A stretch of DNA of 54,971 nucleotides, from assembly GCA_018692315.1 (NCBI GenBank), contig JABHKC010000188.1, positions 1 through 54,971 of the forward strand. Reading direction: 5' to 3'. The DNA is from Bacteroidota bacterium (GTDB lineage: Bacteria; Bacteroidota; Bacteroidia; Bacteroidales; JABHKC01). The notes below the pieces were generated by a model. That model was not told the origin of the DNA. It ran no database searches and worked only from the letters and a program-made list of their open reading frames with translations. How positions within the stretch are numbered: position 1 is the stretch's first letter; every line of letters begins with the position of its first letter. Below are positions 7,294 through 41,432 of this stretch, piece after piece. The position numbers and the translations under genes are program-made.

Positions 7294-7309
7294 ATTTGTA
7301 AATTTAATT

Positions 7310-7334
7310 GCAACTATTTTTATATCTTGCATCT
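7310..7334 (+). promoter_or_regulatory. Putative ECF-type promoter, shared with 11286
   Basis: GCAACTATTT, six bases, then CTTGCATCT, ending 22 bases before the sigma factor ATG. The same ten-base and nine-base blocks with the same six-base spacing occur at 11286-11310. The AAC-containing upstream block resembles -35 elements read by ECF sigma factors, so autoregulation by the adjacent sigma factor is likely. Confidence 0.65.
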
Positions 7335-7355: not shown

Positions 7356-8603
7356 ATGGTTGTTGATCAACAATTAGTTACTGGCTGTAGAGCTGCTGAT
7401 GAGAAGTCGCAAAGATTGTTGTACGAACAATTTTCTCCAACTATGTTTGGAATTTGTTTGAGCTATTGCACGAATCGTCAGGAAGCAGAAGATTATTTAC
7501 AGGAAGGATTTATTACTATTTTTAATAAAATAGATAAATATTCGGGTGAAGGAAGTTTTATTGGTTGGATGCGAAGAATAATGATCAACACCGTTCTTAT
7601 GGGGTTAAGGGCAAAAAAGATTGAAAATAAAGTTGTAAGCATTGACAAAATCAACGAATTAAATATTGATTCAAAAAGTTTTGACAATTCGGAATATTGC
7701 GGCGAAGAAATTAAGTCAACAATATTAGATGCCGAGTTTGACTCAAAAGAGATTCTCGAAATTGCTCACACCTTGCCCGAAGGATATAGAGCTGTTTTTA
7801 ATCTTTATGTTATTGAAGGATATAAACATAAGGAAATTGCAAAAACTTTGGGTATAAAAGAATCGACATCGAAAAGTAAGCTTTTACGTGCAAGAAAACA
7901 ACTTCAACAAAAGTTATTTGATATAAGCATGGAAAGGAAGAAAAAAAACAAAAGGAAATTAGTTTACGCATTTGCACCTTTGGCTATGAATGAAAATTTT
8001 AAATATATAGACGAAATATTAAAAAAAGCATATACTAACTTGCAAGCTACACCCACGAAAAATTGGTTGGATTTGAAGCAAAAAATGCAATCGTATGGGA
8101 ATAAAACTTCAAGTATAGAATCTGCCCAATCAGAAATATCTAATTCTGGCATTGAATTACAAAATTCATTTTTAAGTTCAGTAAGTAATGCTGGTTCTAC
8201 TTTTATTAACTTTTTAAGCACTCATATTATTTCAACTCTTAGCATCGTAACTGTTGCAACTATCGGAATAACTTACCTCTCCTTGGAGAATACCAATGAT
8301 ATTGAAAATAGTAGTATCTCAGTAAAAAATGCTGAAAACAAAAATATTATTGAAACAAAAAACCAAAATATTTTATCTACGGAAAATTCAAGTGTGAGCA
8401 ATACGGAAAACGATATTATACATACAATAGAGGATAAACCTGAACACTCCACAAATATTGGCTCAATCAATGAAAATATTTTGCCCGATAATGTGATTAT
8501 CGATACAATAAAAGTTCCAGTCAAAAAAACTATTTATAAGACAAAAACCATTAGAATTACTGATACAATCAGGAAACAAAAACAAATATTTAGAAACAAA
8601 TAG
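7356..8603 (+). CDS. ECF sigma factor fused to anti-sigma-like segment and membrane anchor
   Basis: A 415-residue protein, more than twice the usual ECF sigma length. Sigma region 2 spans ~20-85 (LLYEQFSPTMFGICLSYC, then DYLQEGFITIFNKIDKY and a FIGWMRRIMINT helix). Region 4 spans ~133-187 (LPEGYRAVFNLYVIEGYKHKEIA, then KESTSKSKLLRARKQL). Residues ~213-247 (YIDEILKKAYTNL...TPTKNWLDLKQKM) resemble the short cytosolic segment at the N-terminus of Bacteroidota membrane partners of ECF factors. One hydrophobic helix follows at ~291-308, then a Ser/Asn-rich stretch and a tail with DTI repeats (IDTIKVP, TDTIRK). The predicted topology puts the sigma domain in the cytoplasm and the C-terminus in the periplasm. 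Activation by proteolytic release or by conformational signalling from the barrel protein encoded 20 bases downstream is inferred. The frame is intact throughout. Confidence 0.85.
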   Translation: MVVDQQLVTGCRAADEKSQRLLYEQFSPTMFGICLSYCTNRQEAEDYLQEGFITIFNKIDKYSGEGSFIGWMRRIMINTVLMGLRAKKIENKVVSIDKINELNIDSKSFDNSEYCGEEIKSTILDAEFDSKEILEIAHTLPEGYRAVFNLYVIEGYKHKEIAKTLGIKESTSKSKLLRARKQLQQKLFDISMERKKKNKRKLVYAFAPLAMNENFKYIDEILKKAYTNLQATPTKNWLDLKQKMQSYGNKTSSIESAQSEISNSGIELQNSFLSSVSNAGSTFINFLSTHIISTLSIVTVATIGITYLSLENTNDIENSSISVKNAENKNIIETKNQNILSTENSSVSNTENDIIHTIEDKPEHSTNIGSINENILPDNVIIDTIKVPVKKTIYKTKTIRITDTIRKQKQIFRNK

Positions 8604-8622: not shown

Positions 8623-9786
8623 ATGTTTGCAATGTTTTCTGAAAAAAAAACGAAATCTGATATGCAAAAAGCTAATCATTTTTATTTTTTAATATTAATG
8701 ATTTTTTTATTTGTAATAAATTCAAATGCGTCAAATATTAAGAGTGTTTTTATAGGCTATGAACAATTTGTGATTGAGCCTGATACCATAATAGTTTACG
8801 ATACAATTTATACATACGATACAGTTTTTACTTATCAAACAATTCATGATACAGTTTTTTACTACGATAGTCTATTTGTAGATGAGATTGAAAAAATGAA
8901 AAAAATAGAACATAAAAAAGCTGATTTGCGGGCAAACTGTTACGACAATTTTGATTTTGATTTTAGAAATTCAATAATACAGAAAAATAAAATCGAAAAA
9001 TCGAATATTGATATCATTTGGGCTTACGGTATTAAAAGCTATAGAGCATCGTTTCCTGAAACAAATGATTTATATAAATTTCGGGAAAAAGCTATTCAAT
9101 CTGCAAATAGCTTGAATATTGGTTTTAAATATAATTATAATATATGGAAGAAACTGTCGCTTAGTAGCGGATTGTCATACTCATTATCTCATGATAATTT
9201 TTCCTTCAGCTACGATAATCTGAACATTGATACATCTTTGGTAGCAGATATTTTTGAAAATATCCATAGCAATGTCGATTCAGTTTATTTCATCAATATT
9301 GATTCATTGTTTTCAATGGGCGATACTATTTGGGAAACATTTTACGACACTTCCTATTCATATACTTTTGATACCAATTATGTTGAAAAATATGATACAG
9401 TTTTTATAAATCATTCGAAAAATGCAATAAATAAAATAGAATATCTTCAAATTCCATTAATTGCTTCATGGTATTTCAATTTCGGAAATCTTAACTTCTC
9501 GTTAAGTAGTGGTATCATTAATGAGTTTTTAATCAGGCATAAAAAATACGAAGTTTATTTCGAAGACGATTTGTATTCAACAAAACTTCAAACAAAGAAT
9601 GAACTTCAAAGCTATTCATTGTCGCTATATATCTCATGTCTTGCCGAATACAAGTTTTCAACTCAATGGAGTTTTTTAGTTGAACCTTATTTTAAGCAAT
9701 CAATTTTCAACTTATATAAAAATGACGATTATAAATTAAAAACAAACATATCTGGCTTAAAAACAGGCTTAAGGTATTATTTCTGA
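8623..9786 (+). CDS. Outer-membrane beta-barrel protein with DTI/DTV repeat region
   Basis: A 387-residue exported protein. The first ATG gives a 14-residue extension (MFAMFSEKK...); the ATG at 8665 (MQKANHFYFL) would give a more typical signal peptide ending near NSNAS. After cleavage comes a repeat region at ~55-90 built on Y-D-T-I/V units (VYDTIYTYDTVFTYQTIHDTV). The C-terminal part alternates polar and aromatic/hydrophobic residues and ends in GLKTGLRYYF, with a terminal Phe as in outer-membrane barrels. The arrangement resembles PorT-like or OmpA-type barrels found downstream of ECF sigma genes in Bacteroidota. It probably forms an operon with the sigma fusion and may pass a surface signal to its periplasmic tail, which carries similar DTI units. 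No substrate can be named. Confidence 0.7.
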   Translation: MFAMFSEKKTKSDMQKANHFYFLILMIFLFVINSNASNIKSVFIGYEQFVIEPDTIIVYDTIYTYDTVFTYQTIHDTVFYYDSLFVDEIEKMKKIEHKKADLRANCYDNFDFDFRNSIIQKNKIEKSNIDIIWAYGIKSYRASFPETNDLYKFREKAIQSANSLNIGFKYNYNIWKKLSLSSGLSYSLSHDNFSFSYDNLNIDTSLVADIFENIHSNVDSVYFINIDSLFSMGDTIWETFYDTSYSYTFDTNYVEKYDTVFINHSKNAINKIEYLQIPLIASWYFNFGNLNFSLSSGIINEFLIRHKKYEVYFEDDLYSTKLQTKNELQSYSLSLYISCLAEYKFSTQWSFLVEPYFKQSIFNLYKNDDYKLKTNISGLKTGLRYYF

Positions 9787-9793
9787 TATAATT

Positions 9794-11284
9794 ATGAAAA
9801 GATTTGTTCTGATATTTGCTTTAACTATAATATTTTTTAAAGTTTTTGCATACCAATTTAAAATTGAGGGATTTGTTACCGACACTTTCGGCAATGATAT
9901 TAATCATCACGAGGTTTATATCTATTCTTTATCTATGGCAGATGTGGAAAAAGTAGAAACAAATAAATCCGGCTATTATTCAAAAGTTTTTAACATTCCA
10001 TTTGGCTACTTTCCAAAATTTTATGTTCAGTCATGGTCAAACTGCAATGGAGATTATTACAACCAAACCGAGACTTGTACTGCGTATCATGGTACAATAA
10101 ATCTTGACTTTGAAGTTTGTAATCAGCATATTCCGCAACATGTCCATATTCCAAATTTTCAAATGGAAAAAATCAATAATCTTTCATACGGATTTATCAA
10201 TACATCCTTTGGTTTTACTGACTCGGTTTATTGGTCATTTGAGTTCGATACAATTTCAACTGAATTTATGCCAATTATCAATTTTCCTGAAAAAGGGCTC
10301 TACGATATTTGTTTACAGATTTTTGATCATAATGATTTTAATGGAGAAATATGTGAAACTCTACCTATTGGCGAATTTGAATCGGCAGTAGGTACTGTTA
10401 AACATAATGGTATAAACTTGCAAGTCGGTATCATATATTTGTATCAAAGATGTAAACCCAAAACATTTACCTGGATTTCAAAATACGAAATTGTTAATGG
10501 AGAATTTGAAATTCCTCACATATTTTACAATCATTTTTACATTCAGGCAATACCGCAATTTGACATAAATTTCCCATATTTTCCAAAATATCTGCCTACT
10601 TATGTCGGAAATTCAGGAATATGGCAGAATGCAGACTCAATTACGATGCAATCGCCAATTCCACCTTTTACTATCGAACTAAATTCTTATGACGAAATGT
10701 TTTATGGAAGTGGTTCAATCTCCGGTACAATAATTCGGCATGATTCAGTTGATTTTAGTTTAGTGCCTATTTGGCTTACATATAACCATTTGCCTCCAGT
10801 TACAGTTTATTTATTGAATGATAATAATGAGATACTGGATTTTAGGTTTTTGGAAACATCTATGGACTTTGAGTTTTTGCAAATTCCATTAGGAAACTAT
10901 CGTATAAAAACAGACGTTTTTAATTATATTCCTATTATTCATCAAATTAATTTATCGGAAGAAAACAAAAATTATATAGTCCCTGATATTAGAATTTATC
11001 AAGATGAGATATTGCTAAACACAGAAACAAACCTGAGTAATTTTTATTCATTTAATATATTTCCTAATCCTTCTAAGGATTTCATTCGCATAGAAAGTTC
11101 AGTTTTTTTACTTAGTGTAAAAGTTTTTGATCTACAATCTGTAGAAATATTTTGTGCTGAATCTATTAATTCGAGAACATATAATCTGGACATAAATGCC
11201 TATGAATTTGGCATTTATATTGTTGAATTAGAAACATATAATAATCAAAAATACAGAAAGAAAATAGTTAAAATAAAAAATTAG
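9794..11284 (+). CDS. T9SS-secreted protein with type A C-terminal sorting domain
   Basis: A 496-residue protein with a signal peptide (MKRFVLIFALTIIFFKVFA) and a carboxypeptidase-regulatory-like beta segment near the N-terminus (KIEGFVTDTFGNDINHHEVYIYSL). The middle is rich in Tyr, Phe and Asn and not recognisable. The C-terminus from ~425 is a classic Por secretion tail: FNIFPNPSKDFIRIES, KVFDLQS, then YEFGIYIVELET...KKIVKIKN. Such tails direct export across the outer membrane by the type IX system and surface attachment. It starts 7 bases after the barrel gene and is probably co-transcribed with it. The likely role is a surface component of the sigma-controlled regulon; no enzyme motif was seen. 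Confidence 0.75.
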   Translation: MKRFVLIFALTIIFFKVFAYQFKIEGFVTDTFGNDINHHEVYIYSLSMADVEKVETNKSGYYSKVFNIPFGYFPKFYVQSWSNCNGDYYNQTETCTAYHGTINLDFEVCNQHIPQHVHIPNFQMEKINNLSYGFINTSFGFTDSVYWSFEFDTISTEFMPIINFPEKGLYDICLQIFDHNDFNGEICETLPIGEFESAVGTVKHNGINLQVGIIYLYQRCKPKTFTWISKYEIVNGEFEIPHIFYNHFYIQAIPQFDINFPYFPKYLPTYVGNSGIWQNADSITMQSPIPPFTIELNSYDEMFYGSGSISGTIIRHDSVDFSLVPIWLTYNHLPPVTVYLLNDNNEILDFRFLETSMDFEFLQIPLGNYRIKTDVFNYIPIIHQINLSEENKNYIVPDIRIYQDEILLNTETNLSNFYSFNIFPNPSKDFIRIESSVFLLSVKVFDLQSVEIFCAESINSRTYNLDINAYEFGIYIVELETYNNQKYRKKIVKIKN

Positions 11285-11285
11285 T

Positions 11286-11310
11286 GCAACTATTTATTAA
11301 ACTTGCATCT
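11286..11310 (+). promoter_or_regulatory. Putative ECF-type promoter, second copy
   Basis: GCAACTATTT, six bases, then CTTGCATCT, starting just after the TAG of the preceding gene and ending 28 bases before the next ATG. Both blocks and their spacing are identical to the copy at 7310-7334. Conservation of the blocks and not the spacer points to selection on a promoter. Confidence 0.65.
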
Positions 11311-11338: not shown

Positions 11339-12355
11339 ATGAAAAGAACATTTTTTTTACTAGGATTAATTTTTGCTGCAACAATTACCTTTGCACAAAT
11401 CAACGGTGGACACGGTGGACACGGAAATCATGGAGGAAACGGTGGCGGCGGTAACGGCGGCAATGGCGGAGGTCCTGGTGGACCCGGCTGTGGAGATACC
11501 ATCATTGTTGTAAGCGATACAATTATTTATTTGCCCGGTGATACAATTTTCACGCATTTTGGCGATACGATTATTGTTACTGATACAATTTTCGGACACG
11601 GCAATCATGGTGGACATGGCAATCATGGAGGACACGGTCATAATGTTGGCGATTCTATAATTTACCTACCCGGCGATACAATTTTCTGTCCTTCCGGTGA
11701 TACTTTAATAGTATCAGACACAATTTTCAGTCATGGTTGGCATGGACATGTTGGTCTAAATGCAACAGATACAATTGTTCATTTACCTGGCGATACTATA
11801 TTTACGCACTTTGGCGATACAATAATTGTTACTGATACAATTTTCGGACATGGAGGTTATGGAAACCACGGTGGACAAGGCGGACATGGAAATCATGGTG
11901 GACAAGGCGGACATGGAAATCATGGCGGACAAGGCGGACATGGAAATCATGGTGGACAAGGCGGACATGGAAATCATGGAGATCATGGTGGAAATGCTCA
12001 AATCTCTGATTCTTGTCTTTGTGAATACTACTCATCAATGGTAGAAACAACAAATCAGATGATTGATGAACAAAAAACAGCTTTAAGTATTGTAAACGAG
12101 ATTACTATAAGCGGATTAAAATCATATCCAAATCCTGTAAGCGACAATCTGAATTTAGAGCTTGTTTCTGATATTTCATCATCAGCAAATATTAAAATAT
12201 ACTCCATCACAGGAAGTGTTTTATATAACGAAAATGTTGAGCTGCACCAAGGTGCAAATTCATTCCATATCAATGTGAAATTTATTCCACAGGGAAGCTA
12301 TCTTATTACTATATCAACCCAAAATTCTTTGGAAACTTTACGATTTGTAAAATAG
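11339..12355 (+). CDS. His/Gly-repeat T9SS-secreted surface protein
   Basis: A 338-residue protein with a signal peptide (MKRTFFLLGLIFAATITFA) and highly repetitive mature sequence. Gly/His/Asn tracts alternate with three copies of a ~40-residue beta-like unit (DTIIYLPGDTIFTHFGDTII followed by VTDTIFGHG). Near residues ~178-218 a nine-residue unit (HGGQGGHGN) is repeated four times almost exactly. The C-terminal ~80 residues form a type A Por sorting tail (LKSYPNPVSDNLNLEL, KIYSITGSVLYN, FIPQGSYLITISTQ), so the protein should be exported by T9SS and displayed on the cell. The dense histidines could bind metal ions such as Ni, Zn or Cu; that is inference. Its promoter is nearly identical to that of the sigma fusion at 7356, which makes it a likely target of that sigma factor. 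Confidence 0.8.
   Translation: MKRTFFLLGLIFAATITFAQINGGHGGHGNHGGNGGGGNGGNGGGPGGPGCGDTIIVVSDTIIYLPGDTIFTHFGDTIIVTDTIFGHGNHGGHGNHGGHGHNVGDSIIYLPGDTIFCPSGDTLIVSDTIFSHGWHGHVGLNATDTIVHLPGDTIFTHFGDTIIVTDTIFGHGGYGNHGGQGGHGNHGGQGGHGNHGGQGGHGNHGGQGGHGNHGDHGGNAQISDSCLCEYYSSMVETTNQMIDEQKTALSIVNEITISGLKSYPNPVSDNLNLELVSDISSSANIKIYSITGSVLYNENVELHQGANSFHINVKFIPQGSYLITISTQNSLETLRFVK
11871..11982 (+). repeat. 27-bp tandem repeat array (4 units)
   Basis: About four head-to-tail copies of a 27-base unit containing GGTGGACAAGGCGGACATGG, encoding HGGQGGHGN, within the His/Gly surface protein. The copies differ at only one or two bases (GGT/GGC), so the array expanded recently and is likely to vary in copy number between strains without breaking the frame. 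Confidence 0.85.
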
Positions 12356-13926: not shown

Positions 13927-16900
13927 TTAATTAGGGTAAACCAAAATACTTGAATTGATCATTTTAATTTGGTATGCCTCGCCCGGCTTCATATTTCCAA
14001 TATTATTAATTGAATAAATAGGCCAATAGACTTCTCCATTTTCATCCTTAGCAATATGAATGTTTGTTGCTATTGAATTGAACATCAAGCTAATTGAAGC
14101 TTCCGATTGTCGCAAATAGCCAACAATACTCCAACCCTGATTTAATGAAATTGGAGTGTTTTGCGGCTCCACAGCATTTCCAATAATTATAGTGCTTGTA
14201 GTCGCATTCATTTTTATTTGATAGCCTCTGCCAATAATATGATTCCCAATACTATTTACATTAAACTGTGGCCAAAAAACCAAGCCAAACTGGTCTTTTA
14301 TTATTTCAAGTTCTTGAAGAATATTTCCAAAAATACTATCTAAAGTTGGTTCAAATGGATCAATATATGTTGAAAATAAATTCCAGCCCGAATCTATCTG
14401 AACAGATTGAGTTTGGTATGAAAATGCAAGTAGTTCTTCCAATCCACTTAAGCCATTTGTAGCGAAGGTGTTAGAGTTTGGGTAATTGTTTGTATTGTAT
14501 GTTGCCTGAGCGTCATACTCCATGTTATTATTTGGAGTCCAAATTTTCCATTTGAATTCTTCGTTTTGAGAGTAACCATCATTCCCGAGACTTTCGCCAT
14601 AAGTGGGTAACACAATTGATGTTCCTGCCCACATAGAAAAACCACCACAAGCCAAAAATCCCAACGAATCATAAAATACACCAATATAATCACCAATCGA
14701 AATTTGATTCCCATCAATAGTTAAGGCTGCTGTTTCAGGAATAATAATATTATGAATAATACCTGTATTAGCAAAAAACCAAGGAACTATGTTCGTGTAG
14801 GTACATGAACCATCATCGATTGTTGCATTTGGATTATAATTGTCTGCGCTTGAATCGGTGCAACCAAGAACATCGATAGAAATTGTGTCGCCTGTAATTG
14901 ATAGAGTAAAATCGCCTGATGAATTATTATATCCATAAACTTTCACATAATAAGTTCCTGCAAATAAAGTGTCGAATACAATTTCGGATTGTAGTAAACA
15001 AAAGTCATCATTGTGGGCAATGTAATTTGAATCGCTGCAATTCTCCCAAATTTGAAGTTGAGTGTCATAATTGGAGCCACACAAAGAAACCACAACATTT
15101 GAATAAATTCCATCTACCGTAAAACTATACCACCATAAATAATAAGGAGATATTGAATTACTAACTGCGGGTTCATTTACATTTCCATAGATAAAAGAAT
15201 TTGAACAACTTTCTCCTGCTTCAGTAATCCAACAATTGCCATCATCAACATTTGCATTCGGATTATAGTTAAAGGCAATTGGGTTTGTACATCCAAAAAT
15301 TATTGAGTCGGTATCTAAAGTTAAATTCAAAATAAAATCAGTAGATTGTGGTGCAGGATAGCTTGATACAATAGCATAATACGTTCCCGGAAAAACTGCA
15401 ATATTCTCGAAAGAGCCACCATTATATCCATATGCAGAGCTAATACAATTGTAATAATTTTCTGGACAATCATCTAATATTACCATCCCCGCCCAATCTC
15501 CAACAACAGAGCCACTTAAAGCGCCGGAATCTGATACTACAAATTCATAAACAATATCATCGCCGTTGAGCCAAGTTCCTCCACAATCTAAATTTTCGAA
15601 GTCGTCTCCATAATTTTCGGTAGTGCCCTGAAAATTAATTACCGGTAGATTTAAAATATATGGTATTTCGCAAGTTTCGCCTGGCAGATACAAAATGTTT
15701 TCTGCAGTAAAGGATAAAGTATCATTATTGTTTATTTGGTCGCCAGGCAATGATGTATAAATTGAAAAATTATAAACTTGATTTACAGAAAGATCGGCAA
15801 TTGTTGAGAAGTAGAAATCGAGGGTATCCATTGGCAAAATTGTATCGCTGACGGTTTCACTAACTATAATAGTATCGTTGATGGAATATATTACAATAAA
15901 ATTGCTGGCAGGATTTGAAGCAAAATTTGCTATTTCTACATTCACCATTTCAGAGTTTGTTAAATTATAGCCTGTAGTTGGTGAGTTAGCTGCCACAATG
16001 CTAAGGTCGTTAGTTGGTACAGAAACAAAAACAGTATCGCAAACCAAATTGCTTTGACAATTATTCAATGAAGTATAATAAATTGTTCCGTTCCATCGGC
16101 GTGGCGAAAATGTCTGCCCAAATGGATATTCTTTCCCTGCACCAGTAGTAATTTGCAAGTTTTCGTCTGCAAAAGTTTCTAAACTTGATAGAGTTGTATA
16201 ATTCATCTCAATGGAATTGGTCGAACTTATGTATAAAGCATAAGTTTCTCCTGCATTCAAAAACAAGTTGCTTATGTCGATATGAGCCGGAACATCTGTA
16301 CCAAGACCGGTGATAGCTTGGCTTTCTAAAAAGGTCCATGCTGTGGCATCTGTCTCAAAACCTAAATATGTGCCAGCTTTATAGTATATTTCAATTGTAG
16401 TTTCACCTGCATCAATATTTAGATCAAATCCATTAATAATTATGCTATTAATTATCGAAATATCAAACATATTACCATGGTGGTCGTTGTTGGCCGAAAA
16501 GATTGTGCTAAGAATGTTGGGAAATGTTCTCGATGCTTGAACAAAATATTCTGTTGTAGATAAAAGTATTGGAGTTTCAAATATGTTTGTAATTTGCAGA
16601 AATGAAGTGTCAATGCCGCTATACCATAAATGAGAAATTTCAGGATCGTTTGGCAGCAATTCTATGGTTGCAGTTTGTCCTGAAAAAATATTATAATTTG
16701 AGGCTGATGGAGCAGTTGGGTTCAGGTATGAAGTAATTGTTTTTTGTAGGGTATCATTCTGAAAAATTGGATCATTAGCTAAAAAAATAAATGTAGTAAT
16801 TTCGAAATCTATTTCCGAAATTGTACTCAAATCAATAGATGTGCTAAAAGTATGATAATAAATTTCGCCAGGTAGAACTATGGCAGTTATAGGTTCTATT

Positions 16901-19263
16901 ATTGCAGGAGCACCATCAATACTCATTCCCGCAATGAATCCTCCATTGATTTCCTCTCCATTATTTCTTATTTTAATAATTGTGTTTTCTTGCCCAAGTC
17001 CACATCCCGAGGAAGGAAATTCAATTGACAAAAGTTCGGCATCGTAGTGAGGTTGAGCGAAAAAGTCTTTGCAAAATTCATTGTTGTAAAATGCCGAATC
17101 GCCTAACATTTCTGCCGAAGCACAAATAGTGTTAAATCCTCCAGGAATCACTAAATTTGGCATTGTGATAGTATCAGAATCTAAACTTGCCAGAATACCT
17201 GTCCAATTTTGAGAAACTATTGTTCCATTATTAACTTGATATTTTAGTAAAATGGAACTAACTGTATCTGTTCCAAAATTTGTAATTACAATTTCTACCG
17301 GAATAATATCGTCAACAATTTCAATTTCCAGAGGATTAAGAATGGCTGTAATACCAACATCTAAGGCTATATTATCAACAATCTTGATATTGTCTATCGA
17401 AATGTCGCTTTGCCAGGTTTCGTTCACACCATCGCCTATTGTAGCCCGAAATCTGATAATTAGATTGTCAATGCCTGCATAATTTGAAAGATCAATTTCG
17501 GCGAATTCCCAACTACTTCCCTGGCTGCCAGAAATGTTCCATACATCATTTGTCCATACATCATCATTTATATCGATATGCAGAATTCCCATTCCGGCAC
17601 CGAGCATATGATAATTGAAGCTAATTTGAGGTGAACTTAATAATGAAAAATCGCACAATGTGAGCAAAGAGGCTTCATCGCCAAAGATACGAGGTGAAGA
17701 AGATTCGGTATAAAAATAGAAATTGCCTGAAAATGCAGTATCGGGACCTGTATTTAATGAAGGCGTAGTTCCTGAATTTAATGTCCAATCAAAATCGTCT
17801 TCACTTGATTGAAGGAAATTTCCTATTCCGGTTTCGAAACTTTCTGTAAAAGGAAAATTATTTATTTCATCAATAATAATAAAATTCAAAATTTCAGAGA
17901 GTGTATCATTCAGCAAATTTTCATCGCTAATACCATTTGGTGAGCTTGTCCAGATTTGAATATTATGTGAAATTGAATTAAAATTATAGGAACCAATATT
18001 TATACTATCTTCTTGGTTTCCAGCTGATAGATTCCCATTCCAGTAAAATGGAACGCCTATATTTCCATCTGCTGACCAATTTATTGTTGCTGAATTTAAT
18101 GTACTTAATCCATAATTCTTTAAAGAAATCAGTATGTCCGAATTGCCAGTAAACATTGGCAAATCTTCTAATGCTGAAACGCCTGCGTCATTTGAAGAAG
18201 GGCTATGTATATATAAGGTATAGTCCTCTGTTTCGCCCCAGGAATAATTTCCGCAAGGAGAAATTTCTGAAACTGAGTTGAAATTTGCATTTCCTCCAAT
18301 TTCTGCCACAACTATGCGCATTCGTAAGGAATCTGAAATTGCCGAAACCGGAACTTCAATATTTTTATTATATGTAGTTGTGGGATTAACCAATTCTAAT
18401 ATTGCGACTTCTTCATTCTGATCATAGAAATTTCCGTTTCCGTTCCAATCAATAAAAACTTTGCCTCCTTTGTTGTAATTTCCGCCACAAGTGCCAATTG
18501 TGATATTCAAATTATATTCATTTAATGGAAATAAATCTGTTACCATGTAGGTAAAATCTGAATATGTTGCACAGATTCCGGCAGTATTATTCGATAAAGT
18601 ATTAAAAACAACTTCATCAATTTCAGAATCTACGGAACTATTTGCCTGAGAATAGCAATATTCGGGATCGAATGATAATTGCACATTGGCAAAATATTCT
18701 ACTAAATTTCCATCGGGAGGTAAATCGGGATTTGGGTTTGTATTGTCGCTATAATAATATATACTTTGAGCTCCAATGTTAGAAGGACTACATAAAAATT
18801 CGTCAGTGTTTAAGTGCCAACCAGTAGTATTTTCATCTATTGCAATAACTAAATTCGACACATTGCTGTAATAAAAAGGACTATCGAAAACAATTTTCAT
18901 CATATTTTGTGATGTGGAAACAAATCCCGAAAAAACCGGATTTAGGGCAGAAATTGAAATCCAATCAGTATGATTTTCAAATGTGTCTTTTTCTGTAGTC
19001 CCCATATAAACATTTATTGAATCAGTCCAAATTGAGCCAGAATATTCGAAAATTATGGAGAAAATTGTACCTGATATTTCTATACTTGTTTGAGGATAAA
19101 TTATTTGGCTATAAGTATATCCGTAATATGGCTCTATCGGTATATGTTGATTTACAATAGAATCGTTACCAATTGAAACATTTTGCGTAAATGCGGTATT
19201 TGATAGAAAAAAGATGAAAGTTGTAATGAAAATTACAATAATGTAATGGTATAATTTTTTCAT
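13927..19263 (-). CDS. Giant secreted multidomain adhesin-like protein
   Basis: A 1778-residue exported protein with a signal peptide (MKKLYHYIIVIFITTFIFFL...NTAFTQ). Recognisable parts in order are a GEVED-type domain (~250-350, with FIDWNGNGNFYDQNEEV and GETEDYTLYIH); CARDB/Ig-like beta repeats (DAGVSALEDLPMFTG..., DVGITAILNPLEIEI...); and a MAM-like or cleaved-adhesin domain between them (FPFTESFETGIGNF...DIDNIKIVDN). Two Asp/Asn-rich calcium-type repeats, each following a GCT start (FNYNPNANVDDGNC and DNYNPNATIDDGSC), surround an IDTQLQIW-type PPC-like beta domain. The C-terminal ~160 residues contain two related units (SGWNLFSTYIDP... and QGWSIVGYLRQS..., each followed by a GxxYQIKM segment). 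No canonical T9SS tail is visible. The likely role is surface adhesion or matrix structure. It is monocistronic on the minus strand. Confidence 0.8.
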   Translation of the reverse strand: MKKLYHYIIVIFITTFIFFLSNTAFTQNVSIGNDSIVNQHIPIEPYYGYTYSQIIYPQTSIEISGTIFSIIFEYSGSIWTDSINVYMGTTEKDTFENHTDWISISALNPVFSGFVSTSQNMMKIVFDSPFYYSNVSNLVIAIDENTTGWHLNTDEFLCSPSNIGAQSIYYYSDNTNPNPDLPPDGNLVEYFANVQLSFDPEYCYSQANSSVDSEIDEVVFNTLSNNTAGICATYSDFTYMVTDLFPLNEYNLNITIGTCGGNYNKGGKVFIDWNGNGNFYDQNEEVAILELVNPTTTYNKNIEVPVSAISDSLRMRIVVAEIGGNANFNSVSEISPCGNYSWGETEDYTLYIHSPSSNDAGVSALEDLPMFTGNSDILISLKNYGLSTLNSATINWSADGNIGVPFYWNGNLSAGNQEDSINIGSYNFNSISHNIQIWTSSPNGISDENLLNDTLSEILNFIIIDEINNFPFTESFETGIGNFLQSSEDDFDWTLNSGTTPSLNTGPDTAFSGNFYFYTESSSPRIFGDEASLLTLCDFSLLSSPQISFNYHMLGAGMGILHIDINDDVWTNDVWNISGSQGSSWEFAEIDLSNYAGIDNLIIRFRATIGDGVNETWQSDISIDNIKIVDNIALDVGITAILNPLEIEIVDDIIPVEIVITNFGTDTVSSILLKYQVNNGTIVSQNWTGILASLDSDTITMPNLVIPGGFNTICASAEMLGDSAFYNNEFCKDFFAQPHYDAELLSIEFPSSGCGLGQENTIIKIRNNGEEINGGFIAGMSIDGAPAIIEPITAIVLPGEIYYHTFSTSIDLSTISEIDFEITTFIFLANDPIFQNDTLQKTITSYLNPTAPSASNYNIFSGQTATIELLPNDPEISHLWYSGIDTSFLQITNIFETPILLSTTEYFVQASRTFPNILSTIFSANNDHHGNMFDISIINSIIINGFDLNIDAGETTIEIYYKAGTYLGFETDATAWTFLESQAITGLGTDVPAHIDISNLFLNAGETYALYISSTNSIEMNYTTLSSLETFADENLQITTGAGKEYPFGQTFSPRRWNGTIYYTSLNNCQSNLVCDTVFVSVPTNDLSIVAANSPTTGYNLTNSEMVNVEIANFASNPASNFIVIYSINDTIIVSETVSDTILPMDTLDFYFSTIADLSVNQVYNFSIYTSLPGDQINNNDTLSFTAENILYLPGETCEIPYILNLPVINFQGTTENYGDDFENLDCGGTWLNGDDIVYEFVVSDSGALSGSVVGDWAGMVILDDCPENYYNCISSAYGYNGGSFENIAVFPGTYYAIVSSYPAPQSTDFILNLTLDTDSIIFGCTNPIAFNYNPNANVDDGNCWITEAGESCSNSFIYGNVNEPAVSNSISPYYLWWYSFTVDGIYSNVVVSLCGSNYDTQLQIWENCSDSNYIAHNDDFCLLQSEIVFDTLFAGTYYVKVYGYNNSSGDFTLSITGDTISIDVLGCTDSSADNYNPNATIDDGSCTYTNIVPWFFANTGIIHNIIIPETAALTIDGNQISIGDYIGVFYDSLGFLACGGFSMWAGTSIVLPTYGESLGNDGYSQNEEFKWKIWTPNNNMEYDAQATYNTNNYPNSNTFATNGLSGLEELLAFSYQTQSVQIDSGWNLFSTYIDPFEPTLDSIFGNILQELEIIKDQFGLVFWPQFNVNSIGNHIIGRGYQIKMNATTSTIIIGNAVEPQNTPISLNQGWSIVGYLRQSEASISLMFNSIATNIHIAKDENGEVYWPIYSINNIGNMKPGEAYQIKMINSSILVYPN

Positions 19264-36991: not shown

Positions 36992-38668
36992 CTACTCCCG
37001 GACCAAATAAACAATTCCAGGAATTTCAATTGGATTATCATTTAGGTCTTTGCCAGAAATTATGTAATAGTACATTCCGTTTGAGGCTGGCGTACCATCG
37101 TAAATATTTCCATCCCAACCTTTATTTGTATCTGCCCATTCATATATTTTTTCACTTCTTTTGTTAAGAATTATACAACGAAAGCCGGAAATTGAGTTTG
37201 TTTTTACTGAAAATACATCATTTTTGCCATCACCATTTGGTGTGAAAATGTTTGAAACTTCTGCAATTTTGCCATTTCCTGCAATAATTTCACTTATTTC
37301 AAGCGAATCGGTACAACCTGCGTTGTCTGATATTTTTAGTTTCACAATATATTTTCCTGCATTCAAATATAAATTTTCAGGATTTTTATTGTTGGAATAA
37401 TTTCCGTCTCCAAACTTCCATTCATAATTAATTTTCCAGTTACCCGAAATAGCCTCTCCGTTTATAGTTGATTTATTTCTAAAATATACAATTGTTGGAA
37501 TTGTTTTTTCGTAATTAGAAATCTCGAAATCGGCTTTTAGTTTTGGTGGCTCAGTCAGTTTTTTAGAATTGGATGAACTACAACCATTTTGGTTTTTCGT
37601 AGTTAAAGAAATAGTGTGTTCGTTGCTATTTTCCCAAAACAAACTAATTGTATCTTTAAAAATGTCGCTAAGTCTATTTCCCGTAAGGATGCCATCGTCA
37701 AAGTCCCATGAGTAGTTTCGTATCTTTGGGTCTTTTATCAAAATTTTTGCAATTCCACCAAAGCATTTTATTTTTTCGACTATAATAAATTCGGAATTAG
37801 GAATATCCAAAAAATCAATTATCACAGGATTTTCTGTACTGCAAGCAGAATTCGTTTCAGTCCAAATGATTTCTTTTTTGCCAAATTCTGCTGAACTGAA
37901 TTTTGTTTTCGTGCTGGTATGATTTTGAGCTACAATGTTTTCGGGGAATTTCCAAAATCCGGATTTGCCTTGAGAATTAAGCGTAATTTCAAGTCCGCAA
38001 ATTTCCTGCGATTCAATTTTTTGAACTTCAGGAATTTCTACAAATTCAATTTCAACTTTTGCAGAAACAGATTTTTCATTCAGGTTTTCAGTCCAAATAA
38101 ATTGATAAACACCATATGAGTTTGCCTGAATTTTTGCATTTGGGTCGCTATTTGCATTTTTATATTTGTCTGAATTGAATTGTATATTTTTTGAACTACA
38201 AGTCCAAATTGCTTTGGAATTTTTATTTGTAAGAATTGCATTCAACTGAAAATCTTGCCCGCAAATTATTTCATTTTCTCCGGCAGAGGTTTTCAGAAGT
38301 TTTGTTTTTTTCTGGTTTTCAGAAGTTTGAGTAGGAGATTTTTCAGTATCCGGTTTTTTCGATATAGTAGATTTAATATTTGGTTCATATATTCTATTTT
38401 CCACTGCAACATTTTGGTTTTTCAATGGTCTTGAATTTGTAATTTTATTTTCCTCAGAAAAATTGCTATAAAAAAACATCGAAGAAACTATAGCTATTGC
38501 GGAAATTCCTAAGATTAAAAACCGATATTTTGAAACAAAACCAGCCTTAGGCTTTATTCCTCTTGTAGCCTTTATTTTGTCTAAAACACGATTGGGAGCT
38601 TCAGGAGAATAATTCTCGAATTTGTCTCTAATCGTTTTTTCAAATCTATTTTCAGTAATGTCTTCCAT
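36992..38668 (-). CDS. Membrane protein: anti-sigma-like N-terminus, PKD domains, T9SS type B tail
   Basis: A 558-residue protein with an unusual layout. Residues ~1-36 (ITENRFEKTIRDKFENYSPE, then APNRVLDKI) resemble the short cytosolic segment of Bacteroidota ECF partners. One transmembrane helix lies at ~48-68. The rest should be periplasmic or surface-exposed: Ser/Asn-rich linkers, PKD-like domains (IRNYSWDFDDGILTG; YEWKFGDGNYSNNKNPENLY), and a C-terminal gliding-motility/CHU_C domain (VSNIFTPNGDGKNDVFSVKT, LNKRSEKIYEWADTNKGWDG, GMYYYIISGKD). That domain is the type B T9SS sorting signal. The gene follows the second ECF sigma gene by 14 bases on the same strand, and so likely encodes its regulatory partner. 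A normal cleaved signal peptide is absent. Confidence 0.85.
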   Translation of the reverse strand: MEDITENRFEKTIRDKFENYSPEAPNRVLDKIKATRGIKPKAGFVSKYRFLILGISAIAIVSSMFFYSNFSEENKITNSRPLKNQNVAVENRIYEPNIKSTISKKPDTEKSPTQTSENQKKTKLLKTSAGENEIICGQDFQLNAILTNKNSKAIWTCSSKNIQFNSDKYKNANSDPNAKIQANSYGVYQFIWTENLNEKSVSAKVEIEFVEIPEVQKIESQEICGLEITLNSQGKSGFWKFPENIVAQNHTSTKTKFSSAEFGKKEIIWTETNSACSTENPVIIDFLDIPNSEFIIVEKIKCFGGIAKILIKDPKIRNYSWDFDDGILTGNRLSDIFKDTISLFWENSNEHTISLTTKNQNGCSSSNSKKLTEPPKLKADFEISNYEKTIPTIVYFRNKSTINGEAISGNWKINYEWKFGDGNYSNNKNPENLYLNAGKYIVKLKISDNAGCTDSLEISEIIAGNGKIAEVSNIFTPNGDGKNDVFSVKTNSISGFRCIILNKRSEKIYEWADTNKGWDGNIYDGTPASNGMYYYIISGKDLNDNPIEIPGIVYLVRE

Positions 38669-38682
38669 TTTTCAAATCAATA

Positions 38683-39231
38683 TTATTGCTTGTTGGCAAT
38701 CTTTAGTTCTTCCAAGATTTTTACTTGAAGGTGTTTTCTTGCCTTTGCAAATTGTGTTTTCGAAGTACTCTCAGAAATATTCATTATTTCGGCAATTTCA
38801 CGATGTTTGTATCCTTCAATTGCAAAAAGATTGAACACCATTTTGTATCCTTGAGGCATGCTTTGAACAATTTGCATTAGCTCGTTTGTCGATATTTTCG
38901 AGATTATTTCGTTTTCGAAAATCAAACTGTCGCCAAAATTTTCTAAATCGTAATCGTCTGAGTGGCGTTTATTTTTCTTATAAAAATTTATTGCTGTGGT
39001 AACCATAATTCGCCTTAGCCAACCCTCGAAAACTCCTTCGAATCTAAAGTGCTTCAAATTGTCGAGTACTCGTATAAACCCATCGTGTAAAAGATCTTCT
39101 GCTTCCATTTTGTTTTTGGCATATCGCAGACAAATACCAAATAATTTAGATGAAAAGCGTTTGTATAATTCATCTAAAGCTTTTTCGTCATTTTTTAAAC
39201 ATCCTTTTATTAATTCTTTTTCCTTTAGCAT
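38683..39231 (-). CDS. ECF sigma factor
   Basis: A 182-residue sigma-70 family ECF factor of normal length. Region 2 (LYKRFSSKLFGICLRYAKNK, then AEDLLHDGFIRVLDNL and FEGWLRRIMVTTAINFY) and region 4 (MPQGYKMVFNLFAIEGYKHREIAE, then SESTSKTQFAKARKHLQ) are complete. It is clearly related to the sigma half of the fusion at 7356: both share the FGICL, GYK(H) and E-S-T-S-K segments. Its partner is encoded 14 bases downstream. A GTACAACTATTT block upstream (39266-39277) resembles the first block of the promoters at 7310 and 11286. Confidence 0.93.
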   Translation of the reverse strand: MLKEKELIKGCLKNDEKALDELYKRFSSKLFGICLRYAKNKMEAEDLLHDGFIRVLDNLKHFRFEGVFEGWLRRIMVTTAINFYKKNKRHSDDYDLENFGDSLIFENEIISKISTNELMQIVQSMPQGYKMVFNLFAIEGYKHREIAEIMNISESTSKTQFAKARKHLQVKILEELKIANKQ

Positions 39232-40348: not shown

Positions 40349-40858
40349 TTATCTATGATCAGGATTTCTTTTCCCAACCGTGAAGTATAATAGACGAAGG
40401 AAAAAGTAAATGTCAACACAAAAGATTAGGTAAAGATTAAACATATAGTTTTCTCTGTAATGCGATTCGAAAATTCCACTTCCGTTTAAAAATGAAATGG
40501 CAATAATCACAACTGCCAAAATTCTAATAATAGTAGTAGAAATCTTTGTAATATTTAATTTTCCAAAATATTTTTTATTTCGTACCAGAGCAGCAATGTT
40601 ATAGCTTACCATTACAAAACAATGCAAAGCCGAAGCAGACCGAAAGGTTGTATCTTCATCAAAATATCCTTTTAAGACAACTGGAATGACACAAAAAACT
40701 GCAACTATACATGCTAATTCAACCATCATGTAAAATCGAACCAAATTCACTTTGTCAAGGTCTGTCCATTTTTCAACTTTTGGATTCAATATGGAAAAAA
40801 GTGCAGCAAAACCCGCTATTGTAACAGATAATTCACTTAATGTTAAAAGTTCTTCCAT
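40349..40858 (-). CDS. Four-helix membrane protein, tandem paralogue A
   Basis: A 169-residue inner-membrane protein with four hydrophobic segments (~8-26, 43-63, 77-92 and 105-125, with a further hydrophobic C-terminal stretch ~138-160). It is roughly three-quarters identical to the protein encoded just upstream on the same strand. Both open with LLTLSELSVTIAGFAALFSILNPK and share RFYMMVELACIVAVFC and the YLIFCVDIYFFLRLLY end. No known catalytic or transport motif was recognised. The pair clearly arose by gene duplication. Confidence 0.75.
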   Translation of the reverse strand: MEELLTLSELSVTIAGFAALFSILNPKVEKWTDLDKVNLVRFYMMVELACIVAVFCVIPVVLKGYFDEDTTFRSASALHCFVMVSYNIAALVRNKKYFGKLNITKISTTIIRILAVVIIAISFLNGSGIFESHYRENYMFNLYLIFCVDIYFFLRLLYFTVGKRNPDHR

Positions 40859-40928
40859 AAGTTTTTGGGCACTTTTGTTTGTAAATAATTAATTTGTCAA
40901 GTCTTTCAATGAATTGTTTTTTATATTT

Positions 40929-41432
40929 TTAGTTGACTTTTTTTATTCCAATAGAGAAATAAAGCAGGCGTAGGAAAAAGTATATATCAACTACAAAAAT
41001 TAAGTACATATTAAACATGTAACTCTCTCTATAATACGATTTAAAAGTACCCAAACCATTTAAGAGGGCTATTACAATAATTACAATTGCCAGGATTCTG
41101 ATGACAACTGTAGAAAATCCTGCAATGTTCAATTTCCGTAAATGTTTTTTGTTACGTACAAGTGCAGCATAATTGTAAACTATCATTGTGAAAAAATGCA
41201 GCACAGAAACAGAGCGAAATGTTGTTTCCGGCTCAAGATACCCTTTTAAAACTACGGGTATGATACAAAAAACTGCAACGATACATGCTAATTCAACCAT
41301 CATGTAAAATCGAATCAAATTCACTTTGTCAAGTTCCGTCCATTTTTCAATTTTAGGATTTAATATCGAAAAAAGTGCGGCAAAACCGGCTATTGTAACA
41401 GATAATTCACTTAGTGTTAAAAGTTCATCCAT
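40929..41432 (-). CDS. Four-helix membrane protein, tandem paralogue B
   Basis: A 167-residue paralogue of the protein encoded 70 bases downstream. Conserved segments (ELSVTIAGFAALFSILNP; ELDKVNLIRFYMMVELACIV; NYAALVRNKK; VDIYFFLRLLY) fix the shared topology, with about four or five membrane helices. It diverges mostly in the loop after residue 66 (EPETTFRSVS vs DEDTTFRSAS) and the C-terminus. Its role is unknown. It is the first gene of the pair. Confidence 0.75.
   Translation of the reverse strand: MDELLTLSELSVTIAGFAALFSILNPKIEKWTELDKVNLIRFYMMVELACIVAVFCIIPVVLKGYLEPETTFRSVSVLHFFTMIVYNYAALVRNKKHLRKLNIAGFSTVVIRILAIVIIVIALLNGLGTFKSYYRESYMFNMYLIFVVDIYFFLRLLYFSIGIKKVN

Follow-up and report, generated by a model that had tools for sequence, protein, structure and literature searches.

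An ECF sigma factor fused to an anti-sigma-like segment and a membrane anchor, with a conserved operon and a shared promoter motif, in environmental Bacteroidales

The window analysed here is a stretch of 54,971 nucleotides, positions 1 to 54,971 of contig JABHKC010000188.1 (assembly GCA_018692315.1) of a Bacteroidota bacterium of the order Bacteroidales. At 7356-8603 (+), it contains a single intact frame of 415 aa, hereafter gene 1, that runs from ATG to TAG without internal stop. Gene 1 begins with sigma region 2 (residues 22-88, 7419-7619 (+); PF04542, Sigma70_r2, E 3e-13) and region 4 (residues 132-183, 7749-7904 (+); PF08281, Sigma70_r4_2, E 8e-16), both above the Pfam cut-offs, and it scores as an ECF sigma factor against the TIGR02937 sigma70-ECF model (93.6 bits vs a cut-off of 42.9). 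From residue 211 on, eight anti-sigma proteins encoded by separate genes align by their N-termini with the fusion, which delimits an anti-sigma-like segment at residues 211-256 (7986-8123 (+)) with Met211 as its first residue. Hydropathy analysis revealed exactly one transmembrane segment (residues 290-310, 8223-8285 (+); hydropathy 1.62). The predicted periplasmic tail ends in a stretch conserved in fused and split members (residues 380-407, 8493-8576 (+)), and the two DT[IVL] motifs of gene 1, at residues 383 and 403, both lie within its last 35 residues. No Pfam family matched the C-terminal half above its cut-off. ECF sigma factors are normally free, not membrane-anchored. A preliminary description of this DNA had nevertheless read sigma domains, anti-sigma-like segment, transmembrane helix and tail as parts of one intact frame, and Pfam, alignment and hydropathy agree. 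At the sequence level, this single-polypeptide architecture is confirmed, and it is repeated in four further genomes.

We searched 393 genomes of the order with the sigma part as the query (E 1e-40 or better, at most eight candidates scored per genome). A match was found in 114 genomes, and an intact fusion, defined as an open frame of 414-429 aa without internal stop, in five of the 393, own genome counted (G000, G144, G315, G363 and G031). The five fusions are spread over three families, f1 (own genome as sole member), f32 (three of four genomes) and f4 (one of eight), and the homologues share 29-45% identity with the window protein. Because independent genomes carry intact fusions, the fusion is no assembly error; the preliminary description, which had proposed verification in independent assemblies and a search for further fusions, had named the lack of any homologue sharing the fusion as one finding that would speak against it, and such homologues exist. 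When the order search was redone from G363 (392 genomes), the same fusions were recovered and none was added. A 591-aa open frame in G104 was rejected because it reads through a TGA that separates a sigma gene from a Dma-like gene. In two overlapping samples of 395 genomes each, one drawn from the class and one from the phylum, only the own genome was recovered at E 1e-75; given this cut-off and the scoring of four candidates in each genome, remote fusions of the Dma3 type discussed below would escape. Similarly, the C-terminal half of gene 1 used as query against 99 genomes (own included, E 0.001) returned only its own gene; since G031, which is among the 99 and carries a fusion, was missed, this half is too divergent for a single-sequence search. 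Viral contigs yielded three relatives that matched the sigma part only, and none of 26 plasmid records reached 80% query coverage.

A scan of named species genomes gave 571 loci, the best 80 of which were kept. Three of these 80 are fusions (G144, G315 and G031 again) and 77 are split; in 67 of the 77, a simple cut indicated a hydrophobic segment in an ORF downstream. Since most relatives are split, fusion is most simply the derived state, which supports in kind what the preliminary description had proposed.

Split versions of the module itself, the source of the eight separate anti-sigma proteins, were found at L070, L102, L028, L031, L021, L029, L026 and L027. At each of them, a short anti-sigma gene comes after the sigma gene, and its product has the N-terminal motif, transmembrane helix and tail of the module. 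A gene for an outer-membrane protein with DTI repeats begins after the anti-sigma gene in L102, L028, L031 and L026, a gene other than that of the barrel is next in L070, L021 and L029, and the contig of L027 ends there. These eight loci are better counterparts of gene 1 than the second ECF locus of the window, which the preliminary description had compared with it. That locus is indeed split over two genes (sigma, 38683-39231; anti-sigma, 36992-38668), but its sigma factor groups with L121 (100/99), outside the 42-row branch that holds the fusions, and its anti-sigma protein has another far end, made of PKD and T9SS type B sorting domains.

The 36992-38668 (-) protein, in which the transmembrane helix was checked, and L006 (contig C212 of the own genome) are both anti-sigma-like proteins ending in PKD and CHU_C T9SS type B sorting domains. 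Judged from their domains, proteins of this type are apparent anti-sigma factors that would reach from the cytosol toward the surface by a sorting domain, not a barrel. The own genome also encodes, at L005 (contig C121), a split sigma factor and a 471-aa Dma-like protein whose stop and start overlap; the latter has an anti-sigma-like start, a hydrophobic segment (by eye) and a PF13568 barrel. Elsewhere in the window, at 40349-41432 (-), two neighbouring ORFs of 169 and 167 aa, both membrane-protein-like and very close to each other in sequence, apparently arose by tandem duplication.

Three genes follow gene 1 on the same strand, and this conserved operon, like the promoter motif that it shares, was absent from the preliminary description. 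Gene 2 (8623-9786 (+)) is predicted to encode an outer-membrane beta-barrel preceded by a hydrophobic N-terminal segment and DT(I/V) repeats, and has a homologue in all five fused loci. Gene 2 itself has no Pfam match, and PF13568 was found in four of the eight aligned members. In the structure model of gene 2 (mean pLDDT 60), residues 33-159 are disordered. By E-value, OmpT was the top Foldseek hit, although its TM-score by target was 0.28, and the OmpA, OprF and Ail barrels reached 0.5-0.6; the model thus resembles small outer-membrane barrels. Gene 3 (9794-11284 (+)), also with a homologue in 5/5 fused loci, combines a weak CarboxypepD_reg match with a T9SS type A sorting domain (PF18962, 38.7 bits; TIGR04183). 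Gene 4 (11339-12355 (+)), with a homologue in 3/5 fused loci, encodes a Gly/His-rich and DTI-rich protein with a T9SS type A sorting domain (PF18962, 44 bits). With PF18962 scores above the cut-off of 27 and a hydrophobic N-terminal segment, the products of genes 3 and 4 both qualify as T9SS cargo; the sorting domains were checked in the two window genes, and their relatives align across the same C-terminal part. No gene 4 homologue was seen at L048 or L049. The G031 contig stops about 0.9 kb beyond gene 3, unrelated genes lie beyond the gene 3 homologue of G363, and the flanking genes seen vary from locus to locus. A gene 3-like protein is also encoded at 7814-9457 of L101, after a separate sigma and Dma-like pair, and the partnership with gene 3 may therefore predate the module.

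Genes 4 and 2 have the densest DT[IVL] motifs of the window (12 motifs, 3.55 per 100 aa, and 6 motifs, 1.55 per 100 aa, respectively, vs 0.27 over 45 window ORFs). The distribution in L046 is like that of the window, gene 4 of L047 has a single DTI motif, and one of the two DT[IVL] motifs in gene 1 of L049 sits further in. A 1778-aa ORF at 13927-19263 (-) carries 11 DT[IVL] motifs.

Upstream DNA of the 13 module loci revealed an ECF-like promoter motif, TGCAAC-N15/16-YATC, in 10 of the 13, with GCAAC located 39-47 bases before the start. L048 has the variant TACAAC at the same place, and L021 and L027 have TGCAAC without the second element. In the window, the motif (TGCAAC-N15-CATC) lies ahead of gene 1 at 7309-7333 (+), and a second copy is found at 11285-11309 (+), 54 bases ahead of the start of gene 4. 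The motif also directly precedes gene 4 in L046 and L047, a position that was not used to define it, and it precedes both gene 1 and gene 4 in G144 and G315. The 25-base pattern matches the window twice, vs 0.21 matches expected, and 2 of 100 shuffles reach two. Throughout the own genome, TGCAACYN13GCATC has exactly two matches, those ahead of gene 1 and gene 4; it has three in G144 and two in G031, and its backward control matches nowhere in the five genomes covered. When one or two bases were added to the spacing, the own genome gave four matches (three inside opposite-strand ORFs, one without a downstream ORF) and the backward control gave one, in G315. With the same relaxed spacing, G144 gave six matches, among them those at gene 1 and gene 4 and two more that lie 65 and 168 bases ahead of ORFs (L153 and L164), and G363 gave two, both inside ORFs, the G363 module having the TACAAC variant. 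Generic sigma-70 promoters occurred at chance level, and no terminators were found.

Among the best 80 of the 571 loci, the motif is present in 5/5 module loci vs 0/75 others, a comparison that is post hoc because the motif was derived from the module. The looser GCAAC-N17-YATC occurs at 10 of these 75 non-module loci and at the own paralogue L005. In addition, GCAAC-N18-GTC occurs 28 times among the 75 non-module ECF loci, and is perhaps the autoregulatory promoter that these ECF factors of Bacteroidota have in common. Given these N17 and N18 matches elsewhere, the first half of the motif is common to many ECF loci, and the module is marked by the second half and the spacing.

The AlphaFold2 model of gene 1, built on an alignment of 27 rows, has a mean pLDDT of 67.7. 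Most of the sigma part is confident (block pLDDT 89-97 in region 2 and 91-93 in region 4), and the anti-sigma-like segment is modelled as two helices, 216-227 and 237-256, with block pLDDT of 73-87 and 58 in the last part. The transmembrane region appears as a weak helix at 281-308, with pLDDT mostly below 50. Values below 50 throughout residues 287-377 fit a long disordered tether between the membrane and the tail, or may equally reflect a lack of data because the alignment is thin. With both sigma domains superposed, the model matches the SigW-RsiW complex (Z 13.7, 4.5 A over 158 residues), CnrH-CnrY (5.1 A over 150) and RpoE-NepR (5.1 A over 152). Superposition is poorer on the SigK (7.8 A) and BldN (12.3 A) complexes, region 2 alone superposes on the sigma factors bound to RseA or MucA, and the SigH structures bound to RNAP whose alignment spans both domains deviate from the model by about 26 A. 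These superpositions hint that the modelled sigma domains adopt the closed, inhibited arrangement; the docking site of the anti-sigma helices is not visible in the model.

Gene 1 belongs to a known kind of protein, the sigma/anti-sigma fusion, which is known in Bacteroidota too; given IutY and Dma3, both fusions of this kind, it is less surprising than the preliminary description had stated. In the literature on fused or membrane-tethered sigma factors that we consulted, such a fusion is described for Bacteroidota only in PMC13088901. There, Dma3 of Bacteroides thetaiotaomicron, encoded in a two-gene locus (bt_2778-2779), is described as carrying a sigma domain at the N-terminus of an anti-sigma protein, and the Dma plan as anti-sigma domain, transmembrane helix, disordered tether and barrel in one chain. 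Another mark of the Dma family is a partner sigma factor from group ECF21. By described architecture, gene 1 and gene 2 together recall Dma3, with N-terminal sigma and anti-sigma domains, a transmembrane helix, a disordered tether and an outer-membrane barrel at the far end. Unlike in Dma proteins, the barrel here has its own gene instead of forming the C-terminus of the same polypeptide, the tether ends in a conserved tail, and two T9SS-tailed genes come next, one of them with the same promoter motif. The anti-sigma segment matched the N-terminus of the Dma-like protein of L101 weakly in hhalign (E 9e-5, probability 59), and the gene 2 barrel matched the barrel of the same protein with a probability of 95 (E 2.9e-8) and that of the Dma-like L050 with a probability of only 22. 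Taking the Dma plan and the L101 homologies together, the module resembles a Dma3-like chain severed at the junction of tether and barrel.

Other systems share parts of this plan. IutY of Pseudomonas putida (ECF243) likewise unites a sigma factor and a membrane anti-sigma factor in one polypeptide tied to an outer-membrane protein; it responds to aerobactin via a cell-surface signalling receptor (PMC5411451, PMC8999054) and is released by Prc and RseP (PMC5411451). The neighbour here differs in being a small barrel, no FecR or TonB-receptor domain was found in genes 1 and 2, and genes 1-4 have no Pfam match to a FecR-like or TonB-dependent transducer domain up to E 0.1. A separate sigma factor and a barrel-bearing anti-sigma factor are described for P. 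vulgatus (M0N98_03761 and M0N98_03760), the sigma gene rising 33-fold on toxin treatment (PMC9308784); the order of sigma, anti-sigma, membrane span, periplasmic span and barrel is the same, but the cut is opposite, between sigma and anti-sigma, with the barrel fused. ECF48, ECF52 and ECF53 of Actinobacteria also have a C-terminal anti-sigma-like domain and transmembrane helices, and differ by a zinc-finger anti-sigma domain, by other extensions and by hosts without this outer membrane, according to the account in PMC8999054.

From these observations, we favor a model in which gene 1 encodes a cis-inhibited, membrane-tethered and autoregulated sigma factor that would be freed by proteolysis and coupled to the neighbouring barrel, a functional reading to which we assign a probability of roughly 0.55. 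The sigma domains would be kept inactive in cis by their own anti-sigma segment, and the single transmembrane helix would hold the protein at the inner membrane. The periplasmic tail would report on the gene 2 barrel, most likely via pairing of DTI/V strands. Loss or change of this contact would trigger proteolysis on the periplasmic side and then cleavage within the membrane, a step for which one M50 site-2 protease is encoded, freeing the sigma domain. The freed sigma factor would transcribe its own operon and gene 4, which encodes a T9SS-tailed surface or secreted protein. Of these steps, release by proteolysis is likely.

In favor of this model, we count the persistence of the fusion in three families, the homology of the segment to the eight split anti-sigma forms, the superposition of the sigma part on SigW-RsiW and CnrH-CnrY, the homology of the gene 2 barrel to the L101 Dma-like barrel, the two occurrences of the promoter pattern in the genome, the DT[IVL] motifs dense in genes 4 and 2 and present in the gene 1 tail, the M50 gene and the IutY precedent. 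The own genome has a single M50 family gene, and its presence is weakly informative because 14/14 control genomes have such proteases. Against the model, we count the 27-row structure model with its low confidence for transmembrane helix and tail, the split loci at which the barrel gene is not next (L070, L021 and L029) or the contig ends (L027), the single DTI motif in gene 4 of L047, the loci L048 and L049, at which no gene 4 was seen, and the variant or incomplete promoter motif in L048, L021 and L027.

Proteolysis is the step that an alternative dispenses with. The sigma factor could act from the membrane, a change relayed via the transmembrane helix opening the cis-inhibited domains so that RNA polymerase is recruited without cleavage. 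The sequence makes no demand for cleavage, ECF41 and ECF238 are switched through the conformation of a C-terminal extension, as described in PMC8999054, and the one further genomic match to the promoter pattern is 4 kb away on the same contig. However, the nearest characterised fusion, IutY, is released by proteases, and the extension here is homologous to anti-sigma proteins, a type of extension whose removal by proteolysis is described in PMC8999054. We therefore consider action from the membrane unlikely.

The boundary between the sigma and anti-sigma parts bears on two further alternatives. In L070 and L102, both genes share one reading frame, interrupted by a single stop (TAG or TAA) that the ATG adjoins directly. 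The start methionine of the split anti-sigma proteins aligns with the Met211 column in seven of the eight loci, L026 being off by two columns; in L029, L031 and L070, this start was picked among possible starts. Met211 is kept in 5/5 fusions, although the L048 row was too short to show it in the alignment of fused and split forms, and K196 and M211 are the only invariant residues across the fusions within residues 190-215. This conservation would fit a locus with two products, the fusion and a free membrane anti-sigma factor from a new translation start at Met211, equivalent to the old split product and setting the ratio of inhibitor to sigma factor. Still, five sequences are few, and the methionine may be retained for its packing where the anti-sigma helix begins, so we regard a second product as improbable.

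The same single in-frame stop that parts the genes in L070 and L102 is also what a neutral read-through would have removed, the long protein then working unchanged as the old complex did. In agreement with this, the tail is common to fused and split members, and the promoter motif is found in 10/13 loci irrespective of the fusion. The trees allow one or two such events. The sigma tree, with 79 rows, places the fused sequences at three points, the window gene (WIN7356) with L067 (99/96), L068 with L069 (100/100), and L048, which together with split module loci make up a mixed group of 11 (94/76); the AU test did not reject one fused clade (p 0.42). A tree of joined sigma, anti-sigma and barrel sequences (13 rows, five of them under half filled) placed four fusions together (84/86) and L048 apart, with an AU p of 0.131 for one fused clade, which appeared in 6% of bootstrap trees. 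One or two fusion events are thus possible on these sequences. On the other hand, the fusion persists at 29-45% identity and in the three families, and hence has been at least long tolerated, and a single chain should by reasoning fix the sigma:inhibitor ratio and call for cleavage or a membrane-bound holoenzyme, which together make a purely neutral origin rather improbable. Finally, an assembly or sequencing error or a decayed gene is contradicted by the intact frames in five genomes, with nothing found in its favor, and can be set aside as extremely improbable.

The favored model of a barrel-coupled, proteolytically freed sigma factor can be extended to the sensing of type IX secretion. The tail would dock by strand pairing on the barrel's DTI repeats. 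While waiting in the periplasm, the product of gene 4, which has these repeats too and whose gene carries the same promoter motif, would compete for this dock. PorA and SigP provide a precedent for T9SS-type cargo feeding back on a sigma pathway (PMC7712824). We hold this extension to be doubtful; if true, sigma output would track the backlog of its own secreted product, closing a loop between a single sigma factor and a single cargo.

The most useful feature of this module is that its fused and split forms are, at the extreme, one stop codon apart. Because both forms exist, the effect of fusing a sigma factor to its inhibitor on stoichiometry, speed and the need for proteolysis is testable in matched pairs. 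With just two genomic matches to its predicted promoter pattern, the circuit also appears to be a small one. In these environmental Bacteroidales, it connects an ECF sigma factor to a barrel of the outer membrane and to proteins with T9SS tails.
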